Assembly (NCBI GenBank): GCA_017464085.1 | Contig: JAFUEE010000111.1 | Coordinates: forward strand, 1 to 34,239 | Direction: 5' to 3' | DNA: 34,239 bases | DNA from: Pseudomonadota bacterium | Lineage (GTDB): Bacteria; Myxococcota_A; Bradymonadia; UBA4248 | Part shown: positions 7,317 to 30,326 of the stretch, in pieces | Layout: every line of letters begins with the position of its first letter | Position numbering within the stretch: position 1 is the first letter of the stretch | The notes under the pieces: model-generated | Database searches by the model: none | What the model saw: only the letters and a program-made list of their open reading frames with translations | What the model was told of the DNA's origin: nothing | Program-made: the position numbers and the translations under genes

Positions 7317-7799
7317 CTAAATGGGGGCATTGAAATCGATCCTCCCGTAAGCCTGTTTGAGCTTCTCGCTTTTAGCGATGAAGATGCCTTCCTGGACGGC
7401 ATCGAGCGCTTCCTGCCATCGTTTTGCGTCCCAGAGTTCGACGTGCCCGCGCTGCCCGATCCAGACGACATCTTTTTCGAGCCCGGCGAATTTTCTCAGC
7501 GAAGCGACGTTGATGCGGCCCTGCGCGTCAAGCTGGCATTCGAGCGAATTTGCGCCGAAAAAGCGGTCGAGCAGGTCTGCGTCGTCGCCGGGGAGCGCGC
7601 AGTATCTGCGCTGGAAATCGTCGAAACCCTCCTTGGAGAAAACGAAAAGCTGGCTTGAAAGCCCATAAGTCACGACGAGTTCTTCTCCGGTATAGTCTTC
7701 GCGCACGCCGAGCAGTGCTTCCCTGAATTTTTTGGGAACTGCCACGCGCCCTTTGGAATCAAGGGTGTGTTCGTATGTGCCGCGAAAAAAGACGCTCAA
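7317..7799 (-). CDS. mraZ: Transcriptional regulator MraZ
   Basis: 160 residues with the TTG start at 7799. MraZ is a ring-forming DNA-binding protein with two AbrB/SpoVT-like halves. Half 1 has FRGTYEHTLDSKGRVAVPKKF and half 2 has CQLDAQGRINVASLRKFAG, the duplicated 'D..GR..vp..lR' signature. A longer frame begins at ATG 7865, but MraZ proteins start just before the F.G.Y.H motif, AGGTG precedes TTG 7799, and an operator-like site sits inside the extra segment, so TTG is preferred. MraZ normally opens the dcw cell-division cluster before rsmH (mraW). Here it stands alone: the next gene downstream is sppA behind the candidate RNA. It normally binds repeated TGGGN boxes and represses its own promoter. 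Confidence 0.93.
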   Translation of the reverse strand: MSVFFRGTYEHTLDSKGRVAVPKKFREALLGVREDYTGEELVVTYGLSSQLFVFSKEGFDDFQRRYCALPGDDADLLDRFFGANSLECQLDAQGRINVASLRKFAGLEKDVVWIGQRGHVELWDAKRWQEALDAVQEGIFIAKSEKLKQAYGRIDFNAPI

Positions 7800-7818
7800 G
7801 ATATCACCTGTACGAAAA

Positions 7819-7876
7819 TGGGAAAATTCCCCACTTGTCACCACTCTATATGCCTTCATCCCCACGCCGATGTCAA
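7819..7876 (-). promoter_or_regulatory. mraZ promoter with MraZ-box-like operator
   Basis: On the minus strand TTGACA (7876-7871) precedes an AT-rich -10 region (CATATA with an 18-base spacer, or TATAGA with 20). Right behind it lies a 26-bp site (7844-7819) that reads GTGGTGACAAGTGGGG and then AATTTTCCCA. The two GTGG boxes are 10 bases apart, the spacing known for MraZ TGGGN operator boxes. The site is a diverged copy of the 26-bp unit repeated at 8146-8268. Confidence 0.6.
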
Positions 7877-8135
7877 TATGGCACTTTTGGAAGGCAAGTT
7901 TTTATGGTTTGGAAATTCGAGATTAAATTGAATTTTTGATAACAAGTTTCGGGTTTGATTGAATTATATTTGTATTGTCATTCGAATTTGGTTGAAAATT
8001 AATCTGATTTCATAGGCTGAAAAATAATTCGGGCCTGCGCGTAGGCGGCATGCGCGCGGGAAACAGTCGTGCCGCTGCGAAGGGGGATGTGCCGCGAGAG
8101 CGCTAAAATAGAGGCTATGAGCGAGATGTTCTGCT
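7877..8135. other. Non-coding AT-rich spacer upstream of mraZ
   Basis: No credible gene. 7900-8030 is strongly AT-rich, unlike the neighbourhood; 8030-8100 is GC-rich. Nothing else is recognised before the 26-bp repeat array begins. Confidence 0.6.
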
Positions 8136-8268
8136 GTGGGGACGGGTGGGGAAATTTTCCAGTGGGTAAACGTGGGGAAATTTTCCAGTGGGTAAACGTG
8201 GGGAAATTTTCCAGTGGGTAAACGTGGGGAAATTTTTCCGGTGGGTAAACGTGGGGAAATTTTCCTGC
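8136..8268. repeat. 26-bp tandem repeat array, MraZ-box-like
   Basis: GTGGGGAAATTTTCC recurs at 8146, 8172, 8198, 8224 and 8251 (steps 26, 26, 26, 27), preceded by a partial copy at 8136. Between copies the sequence is (A/G)GTGGGTAAAC, so each junction holds two GTGGG boxes with 10-base spacing. Copies are almost identical. There are no unique spacers, so it is not a CRISPR array. It lies about 340-470 bases upstream of the mraZ start and is related to the mraZ-proximal site. Confidence 0.9.
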
Positions 8269-8314
8269 AGGGAAGCGAGGGGACTCCTTTCGATTTTTTG
8301 TTCATTTGTGCCTG

Positions 8315-8396
8315 GCCGTCCTATCTCGCTGGTGCGAGATACGGCCGGCTTTTGCGCGCGTCTATGGGGCATCTGAGGGATGCCCCATACGCCGGC
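8315..8396. repeat. Two reverse-oriented copies of the bulged TAT/ATA hairpin family
   Basis: Copy 5 (8315-8349): TATCTCGC-loop-GCGAGATA, bulged C8342, outer stem with one mismatch. Copy 6 (8358-8396): TATGGGGCATC-loop-GATGCCCCATA (11-bp perfect inner stem), bulged C8390. Both sit behind the minus-strand small membrane protein gene ending at 8405 and may stop its transcription, although the clearest T-run (TTTT, 8350) is on the plus strand. Confidence 0.75.
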
Positions 8397-8404
8397 GCGA
8401 ATTC

Positions 8405-8641
8405 TTAGAGCCCCGTGATGGTCTCGAAAGCGACGGGGGGCAGGTTGAAGCTGCAGGATGTGTAGAGGGCAAAAAGAGTGAAGAACAGGATGCCCATGAG
8501 GAGCGGCAGGAGCCTGCGCGAGAGCTTGTTGTCGAGTTTTCGCGCCCAGAAAGCCATGATGCCGGCGGACAGCAGCGCGCCGGCAAAGCCCAGGCACAGG
8601 ATGGCGGGCTGCATGATGATCATTATGCCGACGGGAGTCAC
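8405..8641 (-). CDS. Small membrane protein, function unknown
   Basis: 78 residues with two predicted membrane helices: about 5-30 (IMIIMQPAILCLGFAGALLS) and about 45-65 (LLPLLMGILFFTLFALY). Between them is a short charged loop (ARKLDNKLSRR), likely cytoplasmic by the positive-inside rule. The GTG start at 8641 overlaps the TGA of the preceding lipoprotein gene in a GTGA arrangement, which argues for a real, translationally coupled gene. I do not recognise the family. A start at a later ATG is possible. Confidence 0.6.
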   Translation of the reverse strand: MTPVGIMIIMQPAILCLGFAGALLSAGIMAFWARKLDNKLSRRLLPLLMGILFFTLFALYTSCSFNLPPVAFETITGL

Positions 8642-9435
8642 TCGGCATCCTCCTTCTGGAAGCTGTCCAGACCGCGCGTTTCCAGGTCTTTGACTGGAAT
8701 CTTTGATATTTTTTCGAGGATCTGCCCATCCTGTTTGATGCGGCTCGTGCGCGTGACTTCGCCGGAGTCGGGATCGTGCACGAAGTGCAGGGAGCGCCAG
8801 AAGGCCGGCACTTTGTCTTCGAGACGGTATTCAGCGGTTTCGTATTCAGCGGCGCTGATGTGCGTGGTGAATTCGAGCGACTGTGTCTCGGGATGGGGAA
8901 TCGGGGCGCCGAGCTTGGAAAAGCCCGGTATTTCTTCAAATGCGCCAGAGGCTTTATGCCAGAGCCATGCGCGGTAATAGGCGTTGTGCATGCCGATGGA
9001 GGTCGGCACGAGCACGTCCTGGATGCCGTCAAAATTGAGGTCGCTGAGCATGATACACGTCGCGGATTCGTTGTTTCCCATCAGGTCGACATCGGACTCG
9101 AAGGCTCGGCTTGGCTTGCCGTCTTTGAGTATCGAGACGGTGACGTGCGCGTCTTTGCAGTGTGTCGAGATGGCTGGCCCGTCTGCAGACAGCTCGTATG
9201 TGATTTCGCGTGTTTTGCTGTCCTCGGCTGTTTCTGTTTGGACGGCATCTGTAGCGCCGGAGGATGCGTCATGCTTCGCCGCCTGAGTGTCTTCCAGAGG
9301 TTCGGCCGCCTGTGAGCGCGGGGTTTCGGAGGGGGTTTCGGCATTGATTGCGGGACTGCATCCGGCAAGCCATGCTGCGGTTAGAATGCCGATGCCTGTG
9401 AAAGGTGCTTTGTGGTGTGGTGGATTCATGATCAT
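8638..9435 (-). CDS. Lipoprotein with XAC2610/FG-GAP-like domain
   Basis: 265 residues from ATG 9435 (a longer frame opens at 9471, but the signal peptide looks normal from 9435). The hydrophobic run ends TAAWLAGC, a good lipobox, followed by a Ser/Ala/Glu/Thr-rich tether of about 60 residues. The globular part contains LSDLNFDGIQDVLVPTSIG and YYRAWLWHKASGAFEEIPG, the 'D.NFDG..D........Y..W......F' pattern of XAC2610-like and FG-GAP-like proteins, where the Asp-rich loop resembles a calcium-binding loop. Role unknown; probably an envelope protein. It overlaps the small membrane-protein gene by 4 bases. A hairpin (TGCCGCA/TGCGGCA, 9464-9479) lies in the leader. Confidence 0.75.
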   Translation of the reverse strand: MIMNPPHHKAPFTGIGILTAAWLAGCSPAINAETPSETPRSQAAEPLEDTQAAKHDASSGATDAVQTETAEDSKTREITYELSADGPAISTHCKDAHVTVSILKDGKPSRAFESDVDLMGNNESATCIMLSDLNFDGIQDVLVPTSIGMHNAYYRAWLWHKASGAFEEIPGFSKLGAPIPHPETQSLEFTTHISAAEYETAEYRLEDKVPAFWRSLHFVHDPDSGEVTRTSRIKQDGQILEKISKIPVKDLETRGLDSFQKEDAE

Positions 9436-9688
9436 GAGAGGAGTCCGGGGCTGAGGGGGATATTGCCGCAAGTGCGGCAGGCTGCAGCGATGATTTTATG
9501 ACATTCCGGGCTGTCGGGCAAGTGCGTTGGGATGGGGGATCCTGATCAGGCTGCGCAGCACTTTCTGAGCAGTACTTTTATCAATAATAATAAGGGCAAA
9601 CGCTAAAGCTTATGATATATGACGGATAGTATAGTGGTGTTAGCTGGTCTTCTGGACTTTTTTGAGCTTGTTCATGAGGAGAAGTATT

Positions 9689-12600
9689 TTGAAACGGGAG
9701 AAATACGCACGTTGGGTTCTGGGAATGTTGGCCTGTCTCGGGCTTATGATCGTCGGGTGCTCGCTGGATGATATCAAGGAAACAGGCGCCGCCTGTCCGG
9801 GCCTGTCGAAGATCAAGGTAGAGGACGGTTCGATATTGTCGTGTCGTTTTGTGGATGGCAAGTGCAGCATCGACAGTTTTGATGTCGCCTTCAGCGCGCA
9901 AGCGCGAGATGCGCTGTGCGCAGGCGCGGAGGATTGCGATGCAGAGCAGATCAAGCGCAAGCGCGAGTATTTTAGCGAATTTTTGATGTATTTTTCGCGC
10001 CGCTCGTGTCCAGTGGATTATACATGCATCGAGAAGGATGCGATGTGTATTTATTCGGTCGTGGAGGATCTGATCATCTGCAATGGTCTGGGCATCGATC
10101 CGATGAGCAATATATATTACTGTGGCGCGAAAGGGGAGTGCCTCGGCGACGATCACGGGGAGACGTGTCAGAGCGGCTATTCGTGTCAGGGGGGCGTATG
10201 CAGTCCGGGCTGTGTGGAAGGCCAGGTGCTCTGTGACGGCGCGTGCATTGTGCCCGAGACGGACATGATTTATTGCGGCGCATCCGGGGACTGCACCGGT
10301 GACAGCCGTGGGGAGGCATGCCCGAGCGGCTACTCGTGTCAGGGCGGTGTATGCAAGCAAGGCTGCGTGGCAGGCCAGGTGCTCTGTGACGGCGCGTGCA
10401 TCGTGCCCGAGACGGACATGATTTATTGCGGCGCATCCGGGGACTGCACTGGGGATAATCGCGGTCATTCATGCCAGAGCGGTCATTCATGCCAGGGCGG
10501 TGTATGCCTCCCTGGGTGCTTGCCTGGCCAGGTGCTTTGCGATGGCGCGTGTATCGTGCCGGCTTCAGATATGCATTATTGTGGCGCGTCCGGGGATTGC
10601 GCCGGTGCGGATCGCGGGGAGGCGTGTCCGAGCGGCTATTCGTGTCAGGGCGGTATCTGTCGTCAGGGGTGCGTGGCAGGTCAGGTGCTCTGCGACGGCG
10701 CGTGCATCGTGCCGGGCACGGATCCGAACCATTGCGGCGCATCCTTGGACTGCCATGGTGAAAATAGCGGGGAGGCGTGCCCGAGCGGCAAATCCTGTCA
10801 GGGCGGTGTCTGCAAGGCCGGCTGTCTTGCGGGCCAGATCCTCTGTGACGGCGCGTGCATCTTGCCCGGTACTGACCCGAATTTCTGCGGCGCGTCTGGC
10901 GACTGCCAGAACGAAAATCGCGGGGAGGCGTGCCCGAGCGGCACGTCTTGTCAGGGCGGTGCCTGCAAGGCCGGCTGCCTTGCGGGGCAGATCCTCTGTG
11001 ACGGCGCGTGCATCTTGCCCGGAACTGACCCGAATTTCTGCGGCGCGTCTGGCGACTGCCAGAACGAAAATCGCGGGGAGGTGTGCCCGAGCGGCAAATC
11101 CTGCAAGGGCGGTGTCTGCACGGTTGAATGTCTTGCCGGGCAGGTGGTGTGCAACGAGCAGTGCGTCATCCCCGAAACGGATCCGAATTATTGCGGTGCA
11201 TCGGGCGATTGCCAGGGGGCGAATGCGGGAGAAAGCTGCCCCAGCGGTTATGCGTGCAAGAATGGCAAATGCGTGGCCGGCTGCATCGAAGGGCAGGTGT
11301 TCTGCAATGGCCGGTGCATCTCTCCTGAGACGGATCCAACCTATTGTGGCGCGAAATCTGGCGGAAGCTGTTCGGATGAATCTGAAGAAAGCGAGAATTA
11401 TCGCGGCGCAATTTGTGTCGGCGGTCAGATCTGTTCAGGCGGCAAGTGCGTATGCCCGGACAGCGCGCCTGTGAGTTGTCAGATTGAACCGGGCGTTTTC
11501 CTCTGCACGGATCCGGCAATCAAGAATGAATATTGCGGCTGCACGAGCGAGGCGGCTGGAGAAAATTGTACACTAAGAGCCGGCGAAGCGGGCAAGTCCT
11601 ATAATTGCGTTGAAAGCAAGTGTACGCTCACTAATTGTGATGCCGGGGAGACTCAGTGCGGCGATATGTGTATCAACCTGTTTTCGGCAGATGCGAATAA
11701 CTGCGGTAAATGCGGGCTTGTGTGCAGCACGCAGGCTCCGCCGAATGCATCTGCGGCAGGCTGTGACCTGGGCGTGTGCCGGTTTACATGCAATGACGGG
11801 TATTTCAATACCTGTCTGCTCAATGCAAAGACGGAGGATGAAAAGAAAGCATGCACGCTTGCGACGAACATCGCTTGCGTCAAGATTGGGACGAACACCT
11901 GTTGCGGGGATGGCTGTACGAATTGCGAGGATATGAACACGGACAAGGAGACCTTTGCCTGTTCAGCGGGCAGTTGCATCGTGTCCTCCTGCAAAGTCGG
12001 CCAGCAGTATTGTGGCGGCGAGTGCAAGACCGTCGCGACTGACAAGGATAACTGTGGCAGCTGCGGCAATCTTTGCGGGGAGGGGACGGCTTGTACGGAT
12101 GGCATCTGCCTTTGTCCGGCGTCTCAGACGAACTGCGGCACGGATGCAGTGCCCGCTTGCAAGAACCTCAAGGAAGACAAGGATTACTGCGGCAATTGCG
12201 GTACAAACTGTGACAGCATCAAGCCGGCAAATACCAAGGTCAAGGCATGCTCGGAGGGGGAATGCAAATATGAATGTGAAGATGGGTATTACAACAAGGG
12301 CGGTGATACTGCGACATCGATCAGCTGTGTGCTGATCGGCACCAATACGTGCTGCGGCGCGAATTGCGAGAGCTGCGATAGCATGGCATCTGCTGGTTCA
12401 TATTATATGTGCGACCAACCGGGGGCTGGCGGTAAATGCGTGAAATCGTCCTGCGGCGCCGGGCAGATGCTCTGCGCTGGGGAATGTTCGTCTACGGCAT
12501 CGGATAGCAACAACTGCGGCGCTTGCGGGCATAAGTGCGGCGCCAAGACGAATTGCACGAACAGCATGTGTGTCTGCTCGACAGCCGGGGAGACGAACTG

Positions 12601-15600
12601 CGGTTCTGATGCTTCGCCGCAGTGCAAAAATCTCAAGACTGACGTGACCAACTGCGGCGGCTGCAATATCACTTGCGCGTCGCTTGCGCCTTCCAGCACC
12701 GATGTGGCCGCATGTTCTGCCGGCGTCTGTCAGTTCTCGTGCAAAGCCGGGTATTACAACAAGGGCACCGGGACGACAGCGACGACGATTAACTGCGTGA
12801 AGATCGGCACCAATACTTGCTGCGGCAATAACTGCGTCAACTGCGAGGACAGCAATACGTCCAAAGTGACGTATGCATGTTCCAATGAAAAATGTGTCGA
12901 ATCGTCGTGCGGCGCGGGAGAATTGCTCTGCGGCGGCTCGTGCAAGACCGTTGCGACAGATAAAAGCAACTGCGGCAGTTGCGGCAATGTCTGCGGCAGC
13001 GGCACAGCGTGCACCAACGGCAAGTGTCAGTGCAGCGCTGCGGGGACGAGCAACTGCGGCTCGGATGCAGCCCCAAACTGCGTGAATACTCAAAGCAATG
13101 CGAATTATTGCGGCAATTGCGCGACCAATTGCTCTGATATAGCTCCGGCAAATGCCGAAGTCGCCACGACCGGGTGTGTTTCCGGGGTCTGCCAGTTCAA
13201 ATGCAAGGCAGGTTACTTTAATAAAGGCACGGGCACGACGTCCACGACGATCAACTGTGTTCAGATCGGCACGAATACCTGTTGCGGAAACAGCTGCGCC
13301 AATTGCGATGCGCTCGCGAGTAACGGCAATTATTTTGCGTGCAGCGAGGGGGAATGCAAGAAATCCGCATGTGGTTCGGGGCAAATGCTCTGCAATGGCG
13401 CTTGTTCGACGACGGCGACTGACAACAGCAACTGCGGTTCCTGCGGTCATGTGTGCGGTGCAGGGGCGAAATGTCAGAATGGCGCGTGTGTGTGTACCGA
13501 GGCAGGCAAAACGAATTGCGGCACGGATCAGGCGCCGCAATGCAAATCGCTCACTTCTGATGTTTCCAACTGCGGCGGCTGCGGCATCACCTGCGCCTCC
13601 CAGGCACCGGAAAATACGGTGGTTTCAGCCTGTTCTGGCAGCGTATGCCAGTTTGCTTGCGCGGATGGCTACCAGAACAAGGGCGGCGGCGTGACCTCGG
13701 CCACGATCAACTGCGTGCTCAAAGGCTCGAACGCGTGCTGCGGCAACGGCTGCACGAACTGTGAGGATCTCAATACGGCCTCTGCCAAATACAGCTGTTC
13801 AGACGGTTCATGCGTGCAATCCTCATGTGGTGCCGGTGAACAGCTCTGCGGGGCTTCCTGTCAGAATACCTCGACAAGCAGTAATCACTGCGGCGCCTGC
13901 AATAACAAATGCGGCTCTGGCACTTCGTGTGCCGCTGGAAAGTGCGCGTGCACTGCGGCAAACACGACAAATTGCGGTTCGGATGCTTCTCCGAATTGCG
14001 TGAATACGCAAAATAACCCGAATTTCTGCGGCAATTGCGGCACGAAATGCTCTGCAGTCGCACCGGCAAATGCCGAGGTTGCGAATACCGGCTGCGTTTC
14101 TGGCGTATGCCAGTTCAAATGCAAATCTGGCTTCTATAACAAAGGCACGGGAACGACCGCGACGACGATCAACTGCGTGCAGATCGGCACCAACACATGC
14201 TGTGGAAACAGCTGCACCAATTGCGATGCGATGGCAAGCAATGGCGTTTATTACACGTGTAGCAACGGTTCTTGTTCGAAATCCGCTTGCGGCGCTGGTC
14301 AGATGCTCTGCGGCGGGAACTGTGCTTCCCTCAACGACAAGGCGACCTGCGGTTCCTGCAACAAATCTTGCGGCGGCGGCGCTGAATTTATCTGCACGAA
14401 CGGCAGCTGTGTATGCGCGGATAATAACAAGACAAATTGCGGTACGGATGCCAATCCCAATTGCGTTTCACTCATCACGACATCCAACTGCGGGTATTGC
14501 GGCCATATCTGCGGTGCTGGCACGACATGCACCAATGGCAATTGTGTCTGTGAAAACAACAAGACGAACTGCGGTTCGGATGCTGCGCCCGCGTGTTACA
14601 GCTTGTCTTCTGATCCGTCGCACTGCGGTTCGTGCCAGACTTCGTGTAATGCGATCAAACCCATGAACAGCAGCGTCAAGGCTGGCAACAGCGGCTGTGT
14701 TCAGGGCGTTTGCCATTTCCAGTGCAATTACGGGTATTACAACGCAGGCAGCGGCGATACGGCTGCGACGATCAATTGTGTCAGCAATTCGACGGCGACG
14801 TGTTGTGGCGCCAGCTGTGTGAACTGCAATAACCAGAAGGCTTCGCTTGGCGGCAATGATGTCGTGCTCTCAGTCGGATGTTCGGCCGGCGCCTGTCAGG
14901 CGACGGCGTGCAAGGCTGGATATACTGTAAGCGCTGGCACATGCGTCGCGAGCGGCGATGCGACCTGCTGCGGCACGGGCTGTGTCAACTGCAATCAGGC
15001 GAACAATGCCCGTGCAGGTATCTGCGATGCCGGCACGAAGAAGTGCAAGATTACGAATTGCACGTCCGGTTATCATCTCAATGGCACCGGCGTGAACAAT
15101 TCCTGCGTGGAAAATTCAGAAACCGCATGTGCAGCGACGAATTCGGCGGTGACGAGCAACTGCGCTTCCGACAATTCAAAACATTATGCCGGCGGCTACT
15201 GCAAGAATGGCGCGTGCTTCATTTATAAATGCGCTCCAGGTTATGTTGTCGTCAATAACAACACATGCGTGCCCTGCACGCCTGAAGATGTGTCGCAGTG
15301 CAGCGGTGTGTCCAATGCGGCGGCTTATGGATGCAGCAATAACCAGTGTGTCGTGTCGGTATGCAGCGATGGTTATCACGTCTATAACGGCGCCTGCGAG
15401 CCGAACAGCAATGCAAACTGCGGTGCCCATGGCACATCGTGCACGACTTCGAATGTCACGAACAGCACTGCGGTCGCATGCAGCAGCGCCGGAGTCTGCC
15501 AAGCGACTGCATGCAAATCGAATTATCATGTCTATAATGGCATGTGTGAGGCCGATACAGCCCTTAACTGTGGTTCGCATGGCCTGGTTTGCTCGTCACT

Positions 15601-16303
15601 GAATGTGCCGAATGGCTCGATTTTCACTTGCCAGAATAAGATCTGCAAAGCGGGAGCCTGCAAGACCGGCTATCATGTCTATAACGGCGCTTGCGAAGAG
15701 AATAACATCGCAAACTGCGGCTCGCATGGCAATCAATGCAGACCAGCTGATGTGCCATACAGCGAGGATATGATATGCGATGGGGGACTGTGCAAAGCAA
15801 AGACGTGCAAAAAAGGCTTTGAATTGGAGCGTGGCGTTTGCGTTGGTATTTCATTGGTCTTGCCTCTTGAGCATTCTTCAGATAAATCTGAATTTCGTGA
15901 GGTTGGGTGTGAGTATGATAATGGTGTAATGTATTATGCTGAGAAGGAAAAGCCAGGTTTGCGCTTCGATACCGGAGAGAAGACAACCATTCAGATGGCT
16001 GATATGTATTTGAGCAGAGATGGCAAATACATTAGCTCAGAAAATAAAACTCAGTTTGCTGTAGCCTATCATCTCGATTTTCATGTTGATTGGAAATATC
16101 TCATGGATGGTGTTGTTGAGCATGTCTATTGTCCAGATATTAAAAGTGGCGAATATAAAGATGAAATAGAAGCCCATCAAAGTGGTTATTGTAATGATAT
16201 ATGGATGTATTGCGCATATACCCCATCTGGAGATTATTATTTATTTGCTTTCCCTGGATGGCACGAATATAGTTTTGCTGTTTGGAGAAAGTATTTGCGC
16301 TGA
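9689..16303 (+). CDS. Giant Cys-rich repeat lipoprotein (MXAN_6577-like Cys repeats)
   Basis: 2204 residues from TTG 9689, chosen because AGGAG lies 7 bases upstream; in-frame ATG 9674 and TTG 9662 have no Shine-Dalgarno. The signal peptide ends CLGLMIVGC (lipobox). Residues about 25-125 are a unique Cys-containing domain. Three repeat classes follow. Class A has 51-residue units with 8 Cys each and motifs GQVLCDGACIVP, YCGASGDC and CPSGYSCQGGVC; there are eight full units plus one partial. Class B has about 153-155-residue units with CCGNxCxNC, NCGSCGNVCG, TNCGSDAAPNC and GYYNKGTGTT; there are about five or six. Class C has units of about 48 residues with YHVYNGACE and NCGSHG. The last 150 residues are non-repetitive, aromatic and AT-rich in codons. 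'TDxxNCGxCG' units are known from myxobacterial Cys-rich surface proteins. The protein is probably disulfide-rich and surface-exposed, a stalk or adhesin (inference). Confidence 0.85.
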   Translation: MKREKYARWVLGMLACLGLMIVGCSLDDIKETGAACPGLSKIKVEDGSILSCRFVDGKCSIDSFDVAFSAQARDALCAGAEDCDAEQIKRKREYFSEFLMYFSRRSCPVDYTCIEKDAMCIYSVVEDLIICNGLGIDPMSNIYYCGAKGECLGDDHGETCQSGYSCQGGVCSPGCVEGQVLCDGACIVPETDMIYCGASGDCTGDSRGEACPSGYSCQGGVCKQGCVAGQVLCDGACIVPETDMIYCGASGDCTGDNRGHSCQSGHSCQGGVCLPGCLPGQVLCDGACIVPASDMHYCGASGDCAGADRGEACPSGYSCQGGICRQGCVAGQVLCDGACIVPGTDPNHCGASLDCHGENSGEACPSGKSCQGGVCKAGCLAGQILCDGACILPGTDPNFCGASGDCQNENRGEACPSGTSCQGGACKAGCLAGQILCDGACILPGTDPNFCGASGDCQNENRGEVCPSGKSCKGGVCTVECLAGQVVCNEQCVIPETDPNYCGASGDCQGANAGESCPSGYACKNGKCVAGCIEGQVFCNGRCISPETDPTYCGAKSGGSCSDESEESENYRGAICVGGQICSGGKCVCPDSAPVSCQIEPGVFLCTDPAIKNEYCGCTSEAAGENCTLRAGEAGKSYNCVESKCTLTNCDAGETQCGDMCINLFSADANNCGKCGLVCSTQAPPNASAAGCDLGVCRFTCNDGYFNTCLLNAKTEDEKKACTLATNIACVKIGTNTCCGDGCTNCEDMNTDKETFACSAGSCIVSSCKVGQQYCGGECKTVATDKDNCGSCGNLCGEGTACTDGICLCPASQTNCGTDAVPACKNLKEDKDYCGNCGTNCDSIKPANTKVKACSEGECKYECEDGYYNKGGDTATSISCVLIGTNTCCGANCESCDSMASAGSYYMCDQPGAGGKCVKSSCGAGQMLCAGECSSTASDSNNCGACGHKCGAKTNCTNSMCVCSTAGETNCGSDASPQCKNLKTDVTNCGGCNITCASLAPSSTDVAACSAGVCQFSCKAGYYNKGTGTTATTINCVKIGTNTCCGNNCVNCEDSNTSKVTYACSNEKCVESSCGAGELLCGGSCKTVATDKSNCGSCGNVCGSGTACTNGKCQCSAAGTSNCGSDAAPNCVNTQSNANYCGNCATNCSDIAPANAEVATTGCVSGVCQFKCKAGYFNKGTGTTSTTINCVQIGTNTCCGNSCANCDALASNGNYFACSEGECKKSACGSGQMLCNGACSTTATDNSNCGSCGHVCGAGAKCQNGACVCTEAGKTNCGTDQAPQCKSLTSDVSNCGGCGITCASQAPENTVVSACSGSVCQFACADGYQNKGGGVTSATINCVLKGSNACCGNGCTNCEDLNTASAKYSCSDGSCVQSSCGAGEQLCGASCQNTSTSSNHCGACNNKCGSGTSCAAGKCACTAANTTNCGSDASPNCVNTQNNPNFCGNCGTKCSAVAPANAEVANTGCVSGVCQFKCKSGFYNKGTGTTATTINCVQIGTNTCCGNSCTNCDAMASNGVYYTCSNGSCSKSACGAGQMLCGGNCASLNDKATCGSCNKSCGGGAEFICTNGSCVCADNNKTNCGTDANPNCVSLITTSNCGYCGHICGAGTTCTNGNCVCENNKTNCGSDAAPACYSLSSDPSHCGSCQTSCNAIKPMNSSVKAGNSGCVQGVCHFQCNYGYYNAGSGDTAATINCVSNSTATCCGASCVNCNNQKASLGGNDVVLSVGCSAGACQATACKAGYTVSAGTCVASGDATCCGTGCVNCNQANNARAGICDAGTKKCKITNCTSGYHLNGTGVNNSCVENSETACAATNSAVTSNCASDNSKHYAGGYCKNGACFIYKCAPGYVVVNNNTCVPCTPEDVSQCSGVSNAAAYGCSNNQCVVSVCSDGYHVYNGACEPNSNANCGAHGTSCTTSNVTNSTAVACSSAGVCQATACKSNYHVYNGMCEADTALNCGSHGLVCSSLNVPNGSIFTCQNKICKAGACKTGYHVYNGACEENNIANCGSHGNQCRPADVPYSEDMICDGGLCKAKTCKKGFELERGVCVGISLVLPLEHSSDKSEFREVGCEYDNGVMYYAEKEKPGLRFDTGEKTTIQMADMYLSRDGKYISSENKTQFAVAYHLDFHVDWKYLMDGVVEHVYCPDIKSGEYKDEIEAHQSGYCNDIWMYCAYTPSGDYYLFAFPGWHEYSFAVWRKYLR
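10057..11460 (+). repeat. Class A 153-bp coding repeats in the giant lipoprotein gene
   Basis: Units begin near 10212, 10365, 10518, 10671, 10824, 10977, 11130 and 11283, each 153 bp and encoding 51 residues; a partial unit lies before and the last is altered by an insertion. The units near 10824 and 10977 are almost identical at the DNA level over more than 100 bases, including silent positions, which shows recent duplication or conversion. Confidence 0.9.
11890..14800 (+). repeat. Class B coding repeats (about 460-468 bp)
   Basis: Units start at the CCGxxC(T/E/V/A)NC motif near 11895, 12350, 12818, 13279, 13737 and 14200, then degenerate forms near 14803 and 14963. DNA identity between units is lower than in class A, so this part is older or has diverged more. 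Confidence 0.8.
15270..15842 (+). repeat. Class C coding repeats
   Basis: Three successive units carry YHVYNG(A/M)CE followed by NCG(S/A)HG and a CxxxxCKA stretch, with step lengths of roughly 140-145 bp; a degenerate first unit precedes them. The array ends abruptly at about 15840, where base composition drops in GC. Confidence 0.75.
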
Positions 16304-27573: not shown

Positions 27574-27850
27574 GATAAGGCGACTGTAGGGTGCTGATGG
27601 TCAATTTCAGTCTGGAGATAAGGTGACTGCAGGGTGCTGATGGTCAGTTTCAGTCTGGAGATAAGGCGACTGCAGGGTGCTGATGGTCAGTTTCAGTCTG
27701 GAGATAAGGTGACTGCAGGGTGCTGATGGTCAGTTTCAGTCTGGAGATAAGGCGACTGCAGGGTGCCGATGGTCAGTTTCAGCCTGGAGATAAGGCGACT
27801 GCAGGGTGCCGATGGTCAGTTTCTGCCCGGAGAGAAGGTTTCTGCAGGTT
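27574..27850 (+). repeat. 43-bp tandem repeat in a transcribed leader
   Basis: Units begin with GATAAGG at 27574, 27617, 27660, 27703, 27746 and 27789, exactly 43 bp apart, with a degenerate seventh at about 27832. Base 8 alternates C,T,C,T,C,C, suggesting growth by 86-bp dimers. Each unit can fold as GACTG ... CAGTC enclosing CTGA-TGG-TCAG, with GGAGATAAGG unpaired between hairpins (the last two copies weaken the outer stem). 43 is not a multiple of 3 and the array lies before the supported start codon, so it is non-coding. Confidence 0.9.
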
Positions 27851-30175: not shown

Positions 30176-30249
30176 GGCGAGTTGGCCGAGAGGCTAGGCA
30201 GAGGACTGCAAATCCTTCTACAGCGGTTCGAATCCGTTACTCGCCTCCA
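30176..30249 (+). tRNA. tRNA-Cys (GCA), copy 1, CCA encoded
   Basis: Acceptor stem GGCGAGT/ACTCGCC with discriminator T (U73, the Cys identity base) and encoded CCA. The anticodon stem GAGGA/TCCTT encloses CTGCAAA, so the anticodon is GCA. The T arm AGCGG-TTCGAAT-CCGTT is complete. All arms fold normally. Confidence 0.96.
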
Positions 30250-30255
30250 CCCCCT

Positions 30256-30326
30256 GGCGAGTTGGCCGAGAGGCTAGGCAGAGGACTGCAAATCCTTCTA
30301 CAGCGGTTCGAATCCGTTACTCGCCT
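30256..30326 (+). tRNA. tRNA-Cys (GCA), copy 2, CCA not encoded
   Basis: The same sequence as copy 1 from the acceptor 5' end through the discriminator T, 80 bp downstream. After ACTCGCCT it continues TTAAGG and not CCA, so CCA must be added by tRNA nucleotidyltransferase. It is followed at once by an intrinsic terminator. Confidence 0.95.

Follow-up and report, generated by a model that had tools for sequence, protein, structure and literature searches.

We describe a set of predicted MraZ boxes upstream of the mraZ promoter, which takes the form of a tandem array in the stretch of 34,239 nucleotides analyzed here (the window). Such an upstream set is kept in the class and is mostly flipped, a pattern suggestive of simultaneous control of mraZ by its own product from two locations. 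We lean towards the reading that the array is an expanded distal operator, and that oligomeric MraZ sitting at both the distal and the promoter sites would bridge them in a loop and tighten autorepression. We report the sites and how they are oriented, conserved and spaced, as well as their specificity across the genome, and infer binding, bridging and the repressive outcome.

The repeat array noticed in the preliminary description is real: five units of 26 or 27 bp occupy positions 8136–8265, every one of them holding a pair of GTGGG boxes at 10-bp spacing. The units begin at 8136, 8162, 8188, 8214 and 8241, the fourth step being 27 bp, although the copy number of this 130-bp array may be miscounted, since the source is metagenome assemblies. 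TRF places the 26-bp repeat at 8146–8265 (period 26, 4.6 copies, 96% matches). Units 2–5 (8162–8265, plus strand; 26/27-bp units GTGGGTAAACGTGGGGAAATTTTCCA), delimited by TRF, pattern search and alignment, carry GTGGGTAAACGTGGGG, and each includes, besides its two boxes, an inverted box that is degenerate (TTCCA); unit 1, a distal MraZ-box doublet at the mraZ-side end of the array (8136–8151, plus strand), deviates and reads GTGGGGACGGGTGGGG. All ten GTGGG boxes of the array (8136–8255) are on the plus strand, and no other plus-strand GTGGG occurs in 7701–8700. A terminator-like hairpin follows just past the array (8276–8292, plus strand); the scan gave this one match, whereas 2.4 would be expected by chance.

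Scattering of the unit through the genome, which had been named at the outset as evidence to the contrary, was looked for by pattern searches over the 4.3-Mb genome. The exact pattern GTGGGN5GTGGGG has five occurrences, each inside the array, and the unit core with up to two mismatches has a single occurrence outside it, which rules out a dispersed repeat or mobile element as the identity of the array. A coding repeat is ruled out as well, the period of 26 not being a multiple of three, so that the reading frame shifts at each unit, and a known RNA element is ruled out by the absence of an Rfam match. Other repeats are present in the window. A second tandem array at 27574–27838 (43 bp, 6.2 copies, 95% match by TRF) is upstream of a lipoprotein-like gene or overlaps its start. 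A tandem pair of tRNA-Cys genes, which form identical 80-bp repeats (30176–30326), shares the window with a very long cysteine-rich repeat protein (9662–16303; a frame of 2213 aa with 153-bp, or 51-aa, repeats).

The mraZ gene next to the array (7317–7799, minus strand) starts with TTG at 7799 and encodes 160 aa (PF02381, E=1e-29). Its product is intact: both halves match PF02381, and both DxxxR motifs are kept (DSKGR and DAQGR). The mraZ promoter (7847–7876, minus strand), identified by eye and by alignment of eight relatives, consists of the −35 element TTGACA at 7876–7871, an 18-bp spacer and the −10 element CATATA at 7852–7847. A strict consensus promoter scan did not list it, because the −10 matches weakly, while TTGACA-N17/18-nATAnn aligns in most of the eight family genomes (in G007 the −10 is CATTAG). 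The spacer between −35 and −10 contains promoter box 1, GTGGGG (7865–7860, minus strand), which the preliminary description omitted and which is found at the same place in seven of the eight family genomes, the exception being G004. The promoter operator (7844–7819, minus strand), located by pattern search and alignment, is the 26-bp site described earlier: box 2 (GTGGT) at 7844, just past the −10, is followed 10 bp on by box 3 (GTGGG) at 7834 and then by an inverted TCCCA. This site, GTGGTGACAAGTGGGGAATTTTCCCA, agrees with the array unit at 20 of 26 positions by manual count. The pattern GTGGGR-N5-TCCCA is present at mraZ in six of the eight family genomes and in all seven f5 genomes searched.

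Some 290 bp separate the promoter operator from the start of the array upstream, so that, unlike the promoter copy, the array is not over or just after the mraZ −10. With its boxes on the plus strand and those of the mraZ operator on the minus strand, the array is also inverted, a feature previously unremarked. The spacer from the promoter to the distal array (7877–8135) is AT-rich, with 38% GC at 7880–8060 against 54% in the window. The rsmH gene is not beside mraZ but on another contig of the same genome, and the two genes are apart in family f1, unlike in the f2 and f5 loci read. No box pair was found at the relocated rsmH in the family rsmH loci fetched, some of which end early at contig ends. 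The separation of mraZ and rsmH in this family raises the question of what MraZ regulates besides itself.

Family f1, to which the genome of the window (G000) belongs, comprises eight genomes, two of them close, and consists mostly of gut Myxococcota; the named relatives are from the gut of buffalo, goat and cattle, with UBA4248 in addition. All eight genomes carry another box doublet 196–329 bp further upstream than the promoter operator, unit 1 being the counterpart in the window. In six genomes (G000, G002, G003, G005, G006 and G007) the distal doublet is inverted and its gap to the proximal site is 273–313 bp (mean 293, sd 12); in G001 and G004 it is forward, with gaps of 196 (G004) and 329 bp. 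A single inverted distal doublet is found also in relatives without an array. The upstream neighbourhood of the distal site differs among these genomes, and the end of the upstream gene lies at very different distances, the stop codon and the distal site being separated by about 10 bp in G003 and about 120 bp in G006. The pattern GTGGGRN4GTGGGR has 27 exact copies in the eight genomes (about 30 Mb), 15 of them upstream of mraZ. Helical phasing of the inverted gaps was at most suggestive (Rayleigh R 0.68, p about 0.06, n=6, the genomes not being independent). Together with the right box, the 10-bp spacing and the intact mraZ adjoining, the concentration of exact doublets at mraZ makes it very probable that the array units are MraZ sites, as predicted from the sequence.

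The sister species G002 keeps the unit 1 doublet perfectly (TTTTCCCCACCCGTCCCCAC on the mraZ strand). The mraZ genes of G000 and G002 are 88% identical, and the distal doublet is intact while the rest of the intergenic spacer aligns poorly. Beside this doublet G002 has its own, diverged array of 25-bp units. With unit 1 identical and a separate array alongside it, units 2–5 seem to have been added at the mraZ-distal end, in an expansion that has a common origin with the array of G002 and has since diverged. The preliminary description took the array for an amplified version of the mraZ operator; the MraZ-type boxes, their spacing and the adjoining intact mraZ bear out part of this, but the founder of the array is likely a separate, conserved distal site, unit 1, and not the promoter operator.

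Boxes at −160 to −500 from mraZ were also counted in other families and compared with dinucleotide-preserving shuffles, in which gene context is not kept. In family f5 inverted distal boxes were present in all 17 loci (54 observed, 6.2 expected) and forward ones were at chance level (6 against 5.2); the box pattern and the range were picked after viewing the first loci, so these figures, like those for f1, are descriptive and not a blind test. The distal excess was weaker in families f3, f4 and f7 (19 against 6.3). Both orientations were mildly elevated (22 against 8.2 and 16 against 6.4), and a strong bias was absent, in the other classes sampled from the phylum; the E. coli control had boxes at −44, −34 and −24 only, with no distal set. 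Tandem arrays in the distal region were found elsewhere: 23 bp in 4.5 copies (L017), 11 bp in 5.5 copies (L020) and 25 bp in 3.3 copies (L009), as well as 19-bp arrays of 10–16 copies in L024, L027 and L028, at about −430 to −720 from mraZ, just past the distal boxes. The 19-bp units (L024–L028) and the 23-bp units (L017) have box-like but degenerate sequences. Putative inverted distal MraZ boxes are thus class-wide, and several lineages appear to have expanded them into tandem arrays. The conserved distal doublet in family f1, taken with the class-wide distal boxes, suggests that the array in the window arose when a conserved distal operator was expanded in this particular lineage.

Other elements were observed in the same upstream regions. 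In family f5 (L017, L023, L029–L033) a TGTGGAAAA-like element is found repeatedly in the stretch from the distal MraZ boxes to the promoter; its reverse complement, TTTTCCACA, is a relaxed DnaA box. Two such elements are in tandem in L017 and none is in the window, where the intergenic region has no DnaA box fitting TTWTNCACA, while the f5 relatives do have them; the element may link mraZ to DnaA. Some f5 mraZ leaders (L017, L029 and L033) have hairpins whose loops read AAGGA/ACGGA, like those of CsrA/Rsm-type binding sites; structure prediction yields the stems, and their stability is not above that of shuffles. In family f11, outside the class of the window (L105, L111, L115 and L127), two forward GTGGG boxes 31 bp apart lie at about −270 to −360 from mraZ, some 200–260 bp upstream of the promoter boxes, and are possibly another distal operator, or coding sequence.

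In the mechanism we propose, MraZ, an oligomeric ring repressor, would bind the boxes over the mraZ core promoter and also the inverted distal boxes about 290 bp upstream, and would bridge the two sites across the AT-rich spacer. A single ring has several DNA-binding subunits and could therefore hold two operators, which favours a bridged two-site complex. Bridging would raise the occupancy of the promoter by MraZ and sharpen autorepression, and the extra units, which add sites beyond the conserved doublet as seen from the promoter, would increase the occupancy of the distal anchor and leave its distance from the promoter unchanged. Some observations count against bridging: the distal site is forward in G001 and G004 and only 196 bp away in the latter; adjacent array units, at a spacing of 26 bp or about 2.5 turns, lie on opposite faces of the helix; and titration would use the same distal sites. 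More tentatively, and with less confidence than in the local mechanism, we suggest that MraZ of this class may form a long-range two-site nucleoprotein complex, in which the ring bridges a repeatedly amplified inverted distal cluster to the promoter operator, and that this autoregulation persisted in a family where mraZ left the dcw cluster.

The other explanations overlap, and the probabilities we give to them need not sum with that of bridging to one. Titration, the main rival of bridging, would have the extra sites soak up free MraZ as decoys and set the threshold or the noise of autorepression, their position and orientation being irrelevant. It is in line with the number of boxes, ten in the array and three at the promoter, with the variation of array copy number between species and with a genome that has no other exact doublets of the array form to compete. 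We nevertheless consider it unlikely: titration does not predict that relatives lacking an array keep a single inverted doublet whose distance hardly varies, and the strong orientation bias of the distal boxes in f5 speaks against it too. That a single inverted site is conserved at 293 ± 12 bp speaks more for a positional role, such as bridging, than for simple titration. It is somewhat less doubtful that units 2–5 are a neutral minisatellite grown from a functional site, which is compatible with a functional unit 1, although this too we would not expect. The first box of each doublet is degenerate in the extra units of G002 (GTGGGTAAAC against GGCAAAC or GGATAAAC), so that full doublets are not maintained there; however, the second box, with its GTGGGG core, is kept in most of these units, two of them form the class-wide GTGGGR-N5-TCCCA site, and arrays recur in the same upstream region in several lineages.

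The boxes normally sit on the coding strand just after a −10, and the distal ones could therefore be the operator of a divergent or antisense transcript. A divergent promoter would require the inverted orientation, and the terminator-like hairpin past the array is on the plus strand, but no −35/−10 conserved beside the distal boxes was found in f1 (read by eye) or in f5 (by alignment), no conserved divergent gene was seen, Rfam gave no match, and the boxes are forward in two family genomes; this origin seems distinctly improbable. Even less credit can be given to a roadblock or insulator, in which MraZ between the end of the upstream gene and the mraZ promoter would halt read-through transcription: in several genomes the distal site closely follows the upstream gene or the terminator of that gene, yet its distance to the upstream stop is far more variable than that to the promoter operator. 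The runs of GGG and GGGG in the array are also reminiscent of the G-quadruplex reported downstream of PmraZ in S. aureus, where an element of this kind was proposed for the mraZ promoter (PMC11796246). A G-quadruplex in place of a protein-binding array is nonetheless extremely improbable, as it needs neither a conserved GTG before each G-run nor a 10-bp period, and pairing of the units would leave loops of 7 and 12 nt, which exceed what is usual in a canonical G4.

MraZ is among the most widely conserved bacterial regulators, and solved MraZ structures exist. A conserved second operator at a set distance, mostly flipped, would give the MraZ ring with its many DNA-binding subunits a natural reason to exist, namely bridging, and the copy-number differences among relatives offer ready-made variants for relating operator number to the autorepression of a cell-division regulator. 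In the literature searched we found no relevant report of a distal MraZ operator, of MraZ with DNA looping or of MraZ binding sites in this class. MraZ represses its own cluster, and both E. coli and M. genitalium use it as a repressor (PMC8475190); the B. cenocepacia protein binds a site of four repeats and probably does so in the form of an octameric toroid (PMC7761207). Autoregulatory MraZ operators were described in E. coli (Eraso et al. 2014) and Mollicutes (Fisunov et al. 2016), according to the statements citing them in PMC8475190 and PMC5138195.

As here, the known MraZ operators have GTGGG/TGGGN boxes every 10 bp downstream of the mraZ −10, and MraZ represses its own promoter. They sit at the promoter, whereas here there is also a distal, mostly inverted and sometimes amplified set 200–330 bp upstream, and mraZ of family f1, unlike that of the known systems, is separated from rsmH. 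The arrangement resembles the two-operator repression loops of lac, gal and ara in having a proximal promoter operator, a distal operator and an oligomeric repressor able to hold both; it differs from them in the MraZ/AbrB-like ring fold and the multi-box arrays, and looping here would be a proposal from the arrangement of sites. The datA locus, a titration locus for DnaA, is similar in being a cluster of binding sites for a cell-cycle regulator, but the array described here is in the upstream region of the regulator's own gene, with conserved distance and orientation.
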